Source: Planctomycetota bacterium (GTDB taxonomy: Bacteria > Planctomycetota > UBA1135 > GCA-002686595). From it: 64,000 nt of DNA. The notes beneath the pieces are model-generated. The model saw nothing but the letters and a program-made list of their open reading frames with translations, did no database searches and was not told the DNA's origin. Shown one piece after another: positions 57,537 through 63,117 of the stretch. Where the stretch lies: contig JAPLOF010000033.1 of assembly GCA_026692665.1 (NCBI GenBank), forward strand, positions 1-64,000, written 5' to 3'. Positions within the stretch are counted from its first letter, which is position 1, and every line of letters starts with the position of its first letter. The position numbers were made by a program, and so were the translations under genes.

Positions 57537-58958
57537 ATGATCGCGCCGCAACCGGAGGATCGCACGGGCCGGACGTGGACCTTCCTCGCCGTCGGGATCG
57601 GCCTCGTGCTGCGACTCGTCCGCCCCGAGGTCCACTCCTTCTGGATCGACGAGGGGATGACGGTGCGGATCGCCCGCGCCGCGGATCCGTTCGCGATGCT
57701 CTGCGCGGACAGCCATCCGCCGCTCGTGTTCCTGCTCGTCCGGGCCTGGATGCGCGCGTTCGGCGAACAGGACTGGATCCTGCGACTCCTGCCAGCGTTC
57801 GTGTCCTGTGCCGCACTCGGCCTGTTCGTCCCGCTCGCGCGCGCCTGGCTCGGGCGAAAGCACGCGGCCTGGGCGATCGCCCTCTACGCCGTATCGCCGC
57901 TCCTCGTGTGGTACGCGCACGAGGTGCGCATGTACGCGTTCCTCGAGTGCTCGACGCTGCTGGTGCTGCTCGCGGCGCGCCGAGCATGGGCGGCGCCCTC
58001 GGCCGCGCGCTGGATCGGGCTCGCCTTCGCGACAGCCGTCGCGACCGGGTTCCACTACTACGGGGCCCTCGCGGGATTGGTGGTCATCGCTCAGGCCGCG
58101 GCCTCGGGCGCGCGCTCGACGGTGCGCACGGGGATCGCGAGCACGGTCGGCGTGCTCGCCTGGACGCCGTGGCTCGTCATGGTCCTGCCCATCCAGCGCA
58201 GCGGCTCCTGGCCCGTGATCGTGCAGGCTTCGCCGCGCGACCTGGCCGAGCTCCCCGCGCGCCTCCTGGCGGTCGACTTCGCCGTCCTCGTGGACCACGG
58301 CGTGCCCGCGATCGGGTGGGTCCTGGGCGGACTGTGCCTCGCGGCATTCATCGCCGGCTGCCTGCGCGCGCTGGCACGCCGGGCTCCGCGCGAGATCGAC
58401 GCGGCACTCGCGGCCCTGATTCCGATCTCTGCGGCCGGACTGCTCGCGTGTTGCGCGAGGGGTGGGTTCCAGCCGCGGTACCTGACGCCGGCGATCCCGG
58501 GCGCGATCGCCTGCATCGCCGCGGGGCTCGTGGCCTGGACGCCGGCCCTACCGGGGCGCGCGGCCTGCGCGGTCCTCCTGCTCTGCGCGACCACGATGAC
58601 GGGCCTGCAGCTGTCCGAGAATCGGCGCGAGGACTACCGCACCGCGACCGCCGAGATCCGCGAGCGTTGGCGTCCGGGCGACCGACTCCTCTTGCTCGTG
58701 TGCGTCCCCGAGTCGCAGATCCCGTCGACGGTCGACCACTACCTGCGCGACAGGCCCGACATCCTCGCGAGCCAGCTCGATCCGCGGGCCTACATGGACG
58801 GTGTCGACCGGCCACCATCGGGCACGCGCATCCACGTCCTGTGGCGGGAAGCGACGATCTGCTTGGAGCCCATGCACCGCCTGGAGACCTCGCACGCGAT
58901 CCTCGAGCGATCCGCGGCCCGTTTCCGCATCCACCGGTTGCTCACCGCCGTCCCGTGA
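57537..58958 (+). CDS. GT39-like membrane glycosyltransferase (ArnT/PMT superfamily)
   Basis: A 473-residue integral membrane protein with about ten hydrophobic segments. The first periplasmic loop contains HSFWIDEGMTVRIAR, where the Asp-Glu pair is the catalytic type seen in GT39 and the ArnT/PMT superfamily, and DSHPPLVFLLVRAW (H-P-P) at the second conserved site. The C-terminal part (REDYRTATAEIRERWRPGD, LLVCVPESQIPSTVDHYLRD) is a soluble periplasmic domain typical for these enzymes. The family moves sugars from polyprenyl-phosphate donors to proteins or lipids; donor and acceptor here are unknown. Confidence 0.75.
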   Translation: MIAPQPEDRTGRTWTFLAVGIGLVLRLVRPEVHSFWIDEGMTVRIARAADPFAMLCADSHPPLVFLLVRAWMRAFGEQDWILRLLPAFVSCAALGLFVPLARAWLGRKHAAWAIALYAVSPLLVWYAHEVRMYAFLECSTLLVLLAARRAWAAPSAARWIGLAFATAVATGFHYYGALAGLVVIAQAAASGARSTVRTGIASTVGVLAWTPWLVMVLPIQRSGSWPVIVQASPRDLAELPARLLAVDFAVLVDHGVPAIGWVLGGLCLAAFIAGCLRALARRAPREIDAALAALIPISAAGLLACCARGGFQPRYLTPAIPGAIACIAAGLVAWTPALPGRAACAVLLLCATTMTGLQLSENRREDYRTATAEIRERWRPGDRLLLLVCVPESQIPSTVDHYLRDRPDILASQLDPRAYMDGVDRPPSGTRIHVLWREATICLEPMHRLETSHAILERSAARFRIHRLLTAVP

Positions 58959-58999: not shown

Positions 59000-59168
59000 G
59001 CTAGTGTCCTGACTCGGAAGTACGCGGGCCAATTCACGCCGCCTGCGCCTCCCCGGCGTCGTTGCGCCTCCTCCGAGGGTTGCTGCGAACCCGCGTCGTC
59101 GCCGCGGCTACCCGGGAAGTCGCAGTCGACGCGAATTGGCCCGCGTACTTCCGAGTCAGGACACTAGC
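59000..59168. mobile_element. MITE-like element with 36-bp perfect terminal inverted repeats
   Basis: The 36 bases from 59000 to 59035 (starting GCTAGTGTCCTGACTCGG) are repeated exactly in inverted orientation at 59133-59168 (ending CCGAGTCAGGACACTAGC). Complementarity continues inward with about 16 of the next 21 positions paired, so the element can fold into one long hairpin of 169 bases. It has no coding capacity of its own and sits 31 bp before the ECF sigma ATG. Size, ends and lack of a gene fit a miniature inverted-repeat transposable element; a CTAG palindrome at each end may be target site or part of the repeat. A large transcriptional hairpin is the alternative reading. Confidence 0.75.
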
Positions 59169-59199: not shown

Positions 59200-59784
59200 A
59201 TGCCCGACGACGCACACGACATCACCCTCATCCTGCAGCGCATCGCCGCGGGTGACCGCGCCGCGGACGGCGAGCTGCTCACGATCTTGTACGCGCAGTT
59301 GCGCGGGCTCGCCCAGGCGCACTTCCGCGGCTCGGGCGACGCGGCACAGACGCTGCAGCCGACAGCGCTGGTCCACGAGGCCTTCGTCAAGCTGTTCGGG
59401 AGCCGCGCGCCGAACTTCGCGAACCGCGAGCACTTCCTGGCCGTGGCGGCCAGCGCGATGCGCTCGATCCTGGTCGATCGCGCGCGGGCGCGCGCGACCG
59501 CCAAGCGCGGCGGGAGCCCGACCCGATTGCCTCTCGACGCGATCCTCGTGCCCTACGAGGACCGCGCCTTCTCACTGGTCGACTTGGACGACGCGCTTCA
59601 ACGGCTGGCGATCGAGTCCCAGCAGGCCGCCAAGATCATCGAGCTGCGCTTCTTCGGCGGCCTCGAGGAGGCCGAGATCGCGCACGTGCTCGGCATCGAC
59701 GCCAAGGTGGTCGCGCGGGACTGGCGCACGGCGCGGGCCTGGCTGCGGCGCGAGCTCTCCACGGACGGCGGAGCCCCGCACTGA
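59200..59784 (+). CDS. ECF-family RNA polymerase sigma factor (Acido-Plancto type)
   Basis: A 194-residue sigma-70 family protein of the TIGR02999-like class found in acidobacteria and planctomycetes. It opens DDAHDITLILQRIAAGD; region 2 includes LQPTALVHEAFVKLFG and FLAVAASAMRSILVDRARAR, and region 4 has ELRFFGGLEEAEIAHVLGID with the helix-turn-helix VARDWRTARAWLRREL. The ATG at MPDDAHD is chosen because it aligns with other family members; the frame is open 46 codons upstream, but that part lies in the MITE-like element. A kinase gene follows after 261 bp, as is usual for this class. No anti-sigma factor gene is visible; control may be through the kinase. Confidence 0.9.
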   Translation: MPDDAHDITLILQRIAAGDRAADGELLTILYAQLRGLAQAHFRGSGDAAQTLQPTALVHEAFVKLFGSRAPNFANREHFLAVAASAMRSILVDRARARATAKRGGSPTRLPLDAILVPYEDRAFSLVDLDDALQRLAIESQQAAKIIELRFFGGLEEAEIAHVLGIDAKVVARDWRTARAWLRRELSTDGGAPH

Positions 59785-60045
59785 GCGGCGGATCCCGCGG
59801 AATCCCGGCATCGGACCACGTTTCTCCGGATTTCCGGGCTGCCGCGCCCGTGATTCTCGTGGAAGGCCTGCGGGTAGGAGAGGATCGAGGTCGACGCCGC
59901 TACGCTGTGCGCTCGCGACTGGCTACAGGCGTCGGAGCTCACTTCCCGGGCACTTCGTGAATCCCCTTCCCGCCTTCGATCCTTCCCTGGGGCCGCAGGG
60001 AACCCCGGCCCGCGCGCGTGCCCCGCGCGGCGGGTGCGGTTCGTC

Positions 60046-63000
60046 ATGACACGCCCCTGGGTGGAACTCGCCCGGGCCTTCGACGAGGCCGCCGCGCTGG
60101 CCCCCGCGGAGCGCGCGCGCTTCCTCGACGAGCGTTGCGGCGCGGACGCCGACTTCCGCCGCGAGGTCGAGGCCCTGCTCCAACAGGACGCCCGGGCCGG
60201 CGACTACCTCGAGCCCCCCGCGGCGGCGCAGTCCGGGGCGCTCCGCGGACCGGCGGAGGGCGCGGTCGTGGGCGGGTTCACCCTCCTGCGCCGGATCGGC
60301 TCGGGCGGGATGGGCAGCGTCCACGAAGCACAACAGACGAACCCGCGACGGCGCGTGGCGCTGAAGTTCCTGCCGCCGCTGTCGGCCGATCCCGGAGTGC
60401 GCCGTCGCTTCGAGCAGGAGGCCGTGCTCCTCGCGCGCATGAACCACCCGTCGATCGCGCAGGTGTACGCCGCGGGGGTCGACGGCAACACGCCGTACAT
60501 CGCGATGGAGCTCGTCGAGGGCGCGCTGCCGATCACCGACTACGTGCGGCGTCACGCGCTCTCGACCCTGGAGGCGATCGCCCTGTTCCGTCGCGTGTGC
60601 GCGGCCGTGGCGCACGCCCACGCGAAGGGCATCGTCCACCGCGACCTGAAGCCGGGGAACGTGCTCGTCGACGCCGGAGGCACGCCGAAGCTGATCGATT
60701 TCGGCATCGCGCGCGCGCTCGACGAGGCCGAGGGCGGCGGGCAGAGCCTGACCCGCACCGGGGACCTGCTCGGGACGCTCCAGTACCTGAGCCCGGAGCA
60801 GGCCGACAGCGTCGGCCGCGAGGTCCACGCGCAGTCCGACGTCCACGCGCTCGGCCTCGTCCTGTACGAGATCTTGTGCGGCCGGCGGGCTCATGCGGTC
60901 GAGGGAATGAGCCTGACCCAGGCGCTGCGCGCCATCGCGCGGGACTCCGTGCCGCTGGCCCGCAGCGTGCGACCGGATCTGCCGGCGGAGCTCGAGTGGA
61001 TCCTGGCCAAGGCGCTCGAGACGGACCGGGCGCGACGCTACGCGAGCGTCGTCGAGCTCGACCGCGAGCTCGAACGGTACGTCGCGCACGAGCCCGTGCT
61101 CGCCGGACCGCGCTCGCGGGCGTACGAGATGCGCCTGTGGGCGAGGCGGCACCCCACGGCCAGCGCGGTCCTCGGCGTCTTCGCCGTGTCGGCCGTCGTG
61201 GTCGTCGTGCTCGCGTTGTCGGCGCTGGCGCGCCAGCGCGAGGTCTTCCGGCTCGCCGACGCGGAGCGGCTGCGCGACCTCGAGCGGCGCGCCGATGCGC
61301 TGTGGCCGGCGAGCCCCGAGAAGGCGCCCGAGATGACGGCCTGGCTCGAGGAGGCACGGCGGCTGACCTCGAACCTCGACGAGCATCGCGCGACGCTCGC
61401 CGCGCTGAGGGCGCGAGCGCTCCCGCTGACGGACGCGGATGTCGTCGCGGACGCGGCCGGGCACCCGCGCGCGGCCGAGCTCGCGGAGTTGCGGCGTGAG
61501 GTCGAGCGCGGCCGGGCCGTGCTGCGACGACGGACTCACGACGACGTCCCGCGCCGCACGGACCTCGACCTGTCGGGTTACGACGGCCTCCAGGGGGCGG
61601 ACGCGCTCAACCGCGTCGCGTACGACATGGTGGATCCGGACGGCGCCTTGGCCGGGGATCCCGATGTCGCGCTGGCCCTGGCGCAGCGCGCGCTGGGGAT
61701 GGAGGGCTGCGACAAGGCCGGCGTCCTCGACACGATCGCCTGGGCGTACTTCGCCGCCGGCGACGACGAGGCTGCCGTCGAGTACGCGGAGCGCGCGCTG
61801 GGCGAGGATCCCGATCGTCCCGAGATCGCGGAGTCGGCGGCGCGACTGTCCCGGGAGTCGGACTACGCGCGATCGACCGAGGGGCTGGCGCGAGCCGAGA
61901 CGCGGATCGCGGACCTCGAACGTCGGGTCGAGGAGCTGGCCCTGGTCGTCGGAGCCCGGCGGACCTGGCGCTTCGCCGACGATTCCGACGCCTGGTGGCA
62001 CGACCGCCTCGCGGACCTCGTCGCCCGACTCGAGCTCTTCGCCGACGCGGAGCGCGGCGCGGTCCGCGGCGTGTCTCCCGAGCACGGCCTGGGGGTCGAG
62101 CGGCGCCTCGCGCACGCCCGCGATGTCGAGAGGCTGTCGCTCGTCGAGCCCGCCGGTGCGTGGCGCGACGCGATCGCCGCGATCCGAGCGGATCCGCGCT
62201 ACCAGGGCCTCGAGCTCCTCCCGCAGCTCGGGCTCGTGCCGCTCGGACCCGACCCGGATTCGGGATTGCAGGAGTTCGCCGACATCGCCACGGGGCTCGT
62301 GCCGACGCGCGGCGCCGACGGGAAGCTGGCCCTCACCGCCGAGAGCGCGGTCGTGTTCGTGCTCCTACCCGGGGGCCGTTTCCTGCTCGGCGCCCAGTCC
62401 AGCGACCCGCAGGGTCGGCAGTACGACCCGGACGCGGGGATCAAGGAACAACCGCTGCGCGAAATGGAGCTCGACGCGTACTTCCTGGCGAAGCACGAGC
62501 TGACGCAGGCGCAGTGGGTCCGAGCGGCAGGCTCGAATCCCAGCACGTTTGCTTCCAACGACTCACTGGTCGACGAGATCTTCGATGAACTGCACCCGGT
62601 CGAGACGGTGAGCTGGTCGCAGTGCGTGCGGTTCCTCGAGCGACAGGGCTGGGTCCTCCCGACCGAGGTCCAGTGGGAGCGCGCGGCCCGCGCCGGCACG
62701 ACGACGCCCTGGTGGACGGGGAAGACGGCCGCATCACTGCAGGGCGCGGAGAACATCTCCGACGCGCGCGCCCACGAGAAGAGCTTCGTGCGCGGGACGG
62801 CTTACGAGCTGTCGATCGACGACGGCCACATCGGCCACGCGCGCGTCGGCAGCTACCGTGCGAACCCGTTCGGTCTCCACGACATGTGCGGGAACGTCGT
62901 CGAATGGTGCCGCGATCAGGCCGCGGACTACGGCGCCGAGCGGCGGCGCGGGGACGGGCTCGTGATCGACTCCACGGAGACGCGCTACATCGTCCGCGGC

Positions 63001-63117
63001 GGCGGCTTCCAGAGCAGCGACGCGTGGGGCGCGCGCGTCTCGCGCCGCGGGATGAACGGGCCGGGGCTGGCCGTCGTGGACCTCGGCGTGCGGCCCGCTC
63101 GAACGATCCGACGCTGA
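60046..63117 (+). CDS. transmembrane Ser/Thr protein kinase with C-terminal SUMF1/FGE-like domain
   Basis: A 1023-residue signalling protein. After an N-terminal helical segment with ARAFDEAAALAPAERARFLD (common to planctomycete kinases linked to ECF sigma genes), a full Hanks kinase runs about 78-350: IGSGGMGSV, VALKFL, HRDLKPGNVLV (about 198), DFG, TGDLLGTLQYLSPEQ. One transmembrane helix lies near 375-397. Then come about 370 residues of helical, partly coiled-coil sequence, and from about 769 a formylglycine-generating-enzyme-like fold: HELTQAQWVRAAGSNPS, HPVETVSWSQCVRFL, LPTEVQWERAARAG, MCGNVVEWCRD and YIVRGGGFQSSD. The FGE domain is outside the membrane and may be a sensor; the catalytic copper-binding Cys pair of true FGE is not evident. 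Confidence 0.9.
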   Translation: MTRPWVELARAFDEAAALAPAERARFLDERCGADADFRREVEALLQQDARAGDYLEPPAAAQSGALRGPAEGAVVGGFTLLRRIGSGGMGSVHEAQQTNPRRRVALKFLPPLSADPGVRRRFEQEAVLLARMNHPSIAQVYAAGVDGNTPYIAMELVEGALPITDYVRRHALSTLEAIALFRRVCAAVAHAHAKGIVHRDLKPGNVLVDAGGTPKLIDFGIARALDEAEGGGQSLTRTGDLLGTLQYLSPEQADSVGREVHAQSDVHALGLVLYEILCGRRAHAVEGMSLTQALRAIARDSVPLARSVRPDLPAELEWILAKALETDRARRYASVVELDRELERYVAHEPVLAGPRSRAYEMRLWARRHPTASAVLGVFAVSAVVVVVLALSALARQREVFRLADAERLRDLERRADALWPASPEKAPEMTAWLEEARRLTSNLDEHRATLAALRARALPLTDADVVADAAGHPRAAELAELRREVERGRAVLRRRTHDDVPRRTDLDLSGYDGLQGADALNRVAYDMVDPDGALAGDPDVALALAQRALGMEGCDKAGVLDTIAWAYFAAGDDEAAVEYAERALGEDPDRPEIAESAARLSRESDYARSTEGLARAETRIADLERRVEELALVVGARRTWRFADDSDAWWHDRLADLVARLELFADAERGAVRGVSPEHGLGVERRLAHARDVERLSLVEPAGAWRDAIAAIRADPRYQGLELLPQLGLVPLGPDPDSGLQEFADIATGLVPTRGADGKLALTAESAVVFVLLPGGRFLLGAQSSDPQGRQYDPDAGIKEQPLREMELDAYFLAKHELTQAQWVRAAGSNPSTFASNDSLVDEIFDELHPVETVSWSQCVRFLERQGWVLPTEVQWERAARAGTTTPWWTGKTAASLQGAENISDARAHEKSFVRGTAYELSIDDGHIGHARVGSYRANPFGLHDMCGNVVEWCRDQAADYGAERRRGDGLVIDSTETRYIVRGGGFQSSDAWGARVSRRGMNGPGLAVVDLGVRPARTIRR

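Follow-up and report, generated by a model that had tools for sequence, protein, structure and literature searches.

The inverted-repeat element at 59000..59168 (no strand assigned) of the window, the whole 64-kb stretch of DNA that we analysed, is very probably a MITE of the IS630 family, mobilised by an IS630 transposase, and at its centre lies a 65-nt hairpin core that recurs within Planctomycetota in elements with quite different arms. The element, taken here together with its palindromic target flanks, is present in further copies in the host genome. Its two arms (59000-59056 and 59112-59168, 57 nt each) are 91% complementary and perfect over the outermost 36 bp, and the predicted fold of 59000-59168 reaches -123 kcal/mol for the plus strand and -137 kcal/mol for the minus strand. 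With a fold z of about -14.5 against shuffles, a chance origin of the hairpin is excluded. The 36-bp perfect inverted repeat described in the first-pass annotation is thus real; since the palindromic target GCTAGC supplies 4 bp per side of it (GCTA/TAGC), the perfect end that belongs to the element itself is 32 bp long. These terminal inverted repeats proper lie at 59004..59035 (plus strand, an IS630-type end, GTGTCCTGACTCGGAAGTACGCGG...) and, as its partner, at 59133..59164 (minus strand). They are bordered by a left CTAG target at 59001..59004 (TA at 59002-59003) and a right one at 59164..59167 (TA duplicate at 59165-59166), neither with a strand of its own. The element proper measures about 161 bp plus the TA duplication and is non-coding, and, as the annotation had stated, no transposase lies within it. 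CTAG is 13-fold depleted in the 64-kb window (12 found against about 163 expected), and 2 of those 12 sites are the flanks of this element. The further pairing of the inner arms also held, and the centre proved to be a distinct conserved core (59051..59115, minus strand), marked out by a match to covariance model R1, by covariation and by G.A conservation.

The host genome (G000, a MAG of 4.58 Mb in 64 contigs, about 90% complete) has several dispersed copies, as expected of a MITE: four are full-length, including the window copy, and 95-100% identical, and three more are truncated or internally deleted, which makes about 7 copies of the family, besides more diverged ones. The junctions of nearly all complete host copies are CTAG or a one-base variant of it, and most complete copies have TA at both ends. 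The suggested search for the 36-bp end in other genomes found the same kind of end in 7 of the 150 relatives searched, where several such copies are elements of 129-164 bp; the sole other genome of the host genus lacked both element and core by the end search and the core model. Two of the host copies (L015 and L328, contigs C32 and C25) agree in private substitutions and in about 30 bp of flanking sequence, so that one of them looks like a segmental duplicate and not a separate insertion. A truncated copy (L018, C56:19988) adjoins GCAGCCCGTTGAAAAAGTCCCT, a sequence similar to an end of some other insertion sequence. In G061 and a relative, elements of the form CCGTGTCCTGACTCGGAAGT...ACTTCCGAGTCAGGACACTA (L063, L083, L091) consist of a perfect hairpin of about 50 bp joined to a second, longer hairpin that is GC-rich and bears TAGTGTCCTGAATCAGAAGA ends, so that the ends are nested or chimeric.

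The assignment to IS630 draws on insertion at TA within CTAG and on ends held in common with a transposase-bearing IS630, in a relative and not in the same genome. In G028, from the same GTDB family as the host, ends of the form TAGTGTCCTGAGTCAGAAGTTCGT flank a complete IS630 transposase of 363 aa at its 5' and 3' parts (domains DDE_3 (PF13358) and HTH; 286 bits to NF033545), and this end is identical to the window end at 20 of 24 positions, compared by eye. Genome G017 holds seven IS630 elements that are complete, 1.2 kb long and located at CTAG, with inverted ends of 26 nt (TAGTGGGGTGAGTCAAAG...). Judged from coordinates and junction reads, six of these seven copies abut a MITE copy (L334, L340, L343, L345, L347, L348) and share its CTAG; they do so on both sides and in both orientations, as though IS630 in that genome favoured the CTAG at the end of a MITE as its target. 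Two further MITE copies there (L179, L180) sit inside the core of another MITE, at its CTAG and with TA duplicated, and intact cores in the same genome provide the empty CTAG sites that match these filled ones, at a locus other than the window's. A preference of IS630 for the TA in CTAG is the subject of the title of Tenzen & Ohtsubo 1991, as cited in PMC2170065. The earlier proposal of a MITE or a miniature of an unknown insertion sequence therefore stands in its first part, given the multiple copies, the TA/CTAG sites and a relative's IS630 with close ends; the insertion sequence is no longer unknown but belongs to the IS630 family. Likewise, the full-length element with a transposase that the annotation proposed to look for has a counterpart with closely related ends in G028; none with ends identical to the window element's subfamily was found in the host and relatives searched. 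The IS630 transposase had no match in the host or in its sister G001, so the copies look orphaned; an IS630 transposase in the host is not needed for membership as a MITE copy, and the host's own has probably been lost or left unassembled, with the host copies as orphans. Mobilisation would thus have been in trans: an IS630 transposase would bind both inverted ends, cut the MITE out and paste it into the TA of a CTAG. By this route the non-autonomous, Tc1/mariner-like element would have landed at a CTAG in the space before the sigma ORF, whose upstream neighbour is co-directional with it.

The core was followed with a covariance model built from 9 copies and searched within Planctomycetota. 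It was found in 30 of 61 relatives, with at least 86 scored copies in the richest genome and 73 in G017, which is nearly complete. A phylum-wide sample of 199 genomes had it in 26, and the other 173, with no match, serve as the sole specificity control. When 67 complete examples were grouped by their arms, they fell into at least 32 arm families; likeness between families is 0.60 for the arms against 0.58 for shuffled arms, and 0.73 for the core. The ends are mostly of CTAGTG type, and CTAGCAGGCCGTTGAA, CTGAGAGGCTGTGAAG and CTTAGGGCCC types are also present. Given these several end types, elements with this core may be moved by transposases of more than one family. One group of core hairpins from other families of the phylum (L218, L223, L230, L235, L237) also has inner arms in common (ACCGAGGCCGAGCGAG / GCAGCCGGCCGAAT), which suggests further conserved internal loops that may be present there. 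Rfam covariance models gave no relevant match to the element at E<=1, and nothing relevant to Planctomycete MITEs or the core sequence was found among the papers searched.

The core consists of an outer stem, a stem GCGCN/N'GCGC, two tandem G.A/A.G steps and a variable inner stem-loop. Among 76 distinct core sequences, 90% of cells pair and both sides change in 16 of 18 pairs. Covariation scored 0.440, whereas shuffles gave 0.107 and slid partners no more than 0.084, figures that overstate independence and are not to be read as probabilities, as the alignment was gathered and fitted with a paired model and the copies are related. As a counterweight to this bias, the arms outside the model are palindromic too, pairing within their own element at 0.75 compared with 0.60 for the arms of other elements. 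Of 77 sequences, 66-68 have the two tandem G.A/A.G steps, and the base pair that separates the steps is C-G in 67, G-C in 6 and T-A in 1; the same G.A picture is obtained with one representative per arm family. Mismatches in the arms, read on the core strand, are also lopsided (G.T 188 against A.C 82, with G.A far above C.T), which identifies one strand as the one that folds preferentially, and base-composition skew could contribute. We put it at about an even chance that selection has maintained the core as a single folded strand through exchanges of the arms and ends around it.

The best-surviving alternative is that the core is common by descent only and functionless, its pairing being maintained by arm-to-arm correction of the palindrome (template switching). 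All of the elements are palindromes, and their arms are complementary although unrelated between families, as such correction would produce. However, correction should erase the G.A mismatches, which instead are retained even as the intervening pair flips, and the strand asymmetry of the mismatches, even with some contribution from skew, also speaks against it. We regard this explanation as somewhat unlikely.

Orientation relative to genes was determined with a codon-usage gene caller written for this analysis. In G017, 30 copies have convergent genes as neighbours, 8 have divergent and 29 co-directional ones, and about 30 of 70 copies supply the junction TAG as a neighbour's stop codon, some of these neighbours perhaps being truncated genes. 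The core strand is antisense to co-directional genes 22:7 in G017 and 20:7 in G034, G026 and the host (pooled 42:14, p = 0.0002). No clear replication-strand bias was seen among the G017 copies (about 41 against 32 by hand counts, with the GC-skew replichore switch placed roughly near 3.5 Mb). The antisense bias, the excess of convergent over divergent placement and the stop-codon junctions are all what one would expect if the core exerted an effect from its C-rich strand, transcribed at the 3' ends of genes, serving for example in Rho-type loading or mRNA stability, and if this action caused the orientation bias. Yet CTAG targeting at TAG stops can by itself yield a 3'-end bias, and the better-folding strand is the opposite one, which leaves this account improbable. 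Insertion into CTAG at TAG stop codons accounts for the preference for gene 3' ends but not for the orientation of the core.

It is very unlikely that the element is an internal-deletion derivative of a single IS630 whose interior is a transposase remnant: its ends are of IS630 type, but the core is not found in IS630 copies, except for one weak match (L073, E 0.012), and it recurs under unrelated ends. We therefore rejected the core as an IS630 remnant, and the interior would instead be the 65-nt folded core that numerous hairpin MITEs in the phylum have in common.

The surroundings of the element were considered separately, as the first-pass annotation had raised the possibility that it sets expression of the gene that follows. 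An ECF sigma factor gene (194 aa, PF07638, TIGR02999) lies outside the element at 59200..59784 on the plus strand, its ATG at the 31-bp distance originally noted, and a co-directional membrane glycosyltransferase gene (PMT_2; 57537..58958, plus strand), also outside it, ends 41 bp upstream of the element. On the 3' side of the sigma gene is a Ser/Thr kinase fused to an FGE-sulfatase domain (60034-63117, plus strand); a search with this protein gave 36 matches in the host genome, so such kinases are numerous there. No orthologue of the sigma factor was found in 80 relatives (best relative 52%, same-genus genome 49%), nor a close orthologue of the kinase among relatives, which makes an empty-site comparison at the sigma locus impossible. 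Within the element, no sigma-70 promoter match was predicted, and there is no GC hairpin followed by a T-run as in an intrinsic terminator. The core of the window copy is antisense to the flanking co-directional genes, as in most copies, and a sense transcript of the sigma gene would bear its weaker-folding strand. The least credible reading, that of a conserved cis-regulatory hairpin in the sigma 5' leader controlling sigma expression, has the position shortly before the ATG and the very stable fold in its favour, but we rejected it because the element is multi-copy elsewhere in the genome and has no orthologous sigma locus, and the promoter, terminator and antisense results likewise speak against it. 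A hairpin present at this locus in all relatives with compensatory changes, and nowhere else in the genome, which had been named as the sign of a conserved regulatory structure, is thus not what we see. A local effect on the sigma gene is possible, though none of the results points to one, and would most likely be incidental; the insertion at this locus was presumably neutral.

Several known systems resemble the element in part. RUP of Streptococcus pneumoniae, a MITE mobilised by IS630-Spn1, is like it in its TA site, IS630-like ends, intergenic position and high copy number; RUP elements are about 107 bp and insert into one another (PMC2229807, PMC10969869). RUP differs in being one family in one species, with 9-bp TIRs and no reported functional motif, whereas here one core is found in at least 32 arm families across a phylum. 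Nezha of cyanobacteria and Chunjie of Geobacter are small non-coding inverted-repeat mobile elements similar to this MITE, and we know of no conserved structured core under different ends in either. ERIC and Correia/NEMIS are likewise hairpins of 100-200 bp with TA at their termini, and the orientation of ERIC affects mRNA stability (PMC2229807); unlike the window element, they have no exchangeable ends described, the likeness drawn here being one of general features. REP/REPIN sequences with RAYT are also high-copy extragenic palindromes and are reported in Planctomycetes too (PMC3733652). They differ in their length of 20-40 bp, their GTAG or CGTC tags and their RAYT-type transposase, whereas the window element, by its length and its CTAG/TA ends, does not fit REP/REPIN and has long arms, a CTAG site and a DDE transposase in relatives. 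ISY100 and other IS630 transposons have the same TA target and duplication, and for ISY100 transposition the terminal inverted repeats suffice and internal sequence is dispensable (PMC2170065), so that conservation of the core needs another reason. What is new relative to RUP, ERIC, Correia and REP is a core common phylum-wide under unrelated arms, with conserved tandem G.A steps.

On the sequence comparisons made here, the core may have a function of its own. Tentatively, and with less than even confidence, we propose that the persistent unit is the 65-nt core itself, a strand-specific folded RNA or ssDNA module with tandem G.A steps that would have repeatedly gained new transposon ends, from IS630 lineages and apparently from other families, and would have outlasted changes of transposase across Planctomycetota. 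MITEs are usually viewed as decayed insertion sequences whose interiors are unimportant. Here, a core with covariation, non-canonical pairs, strand asymmetry and an orientation bias is found under at least 32 unrelated sets of arms in many genera. For work on these genomes, hairpins beside regulators would often be chance insertions at CTAG. If the core is selected, it would represent a long-lived genetic parasite defined by its structure and not by its transposase, and the question of why MITEs keep their interior would become directly testable.
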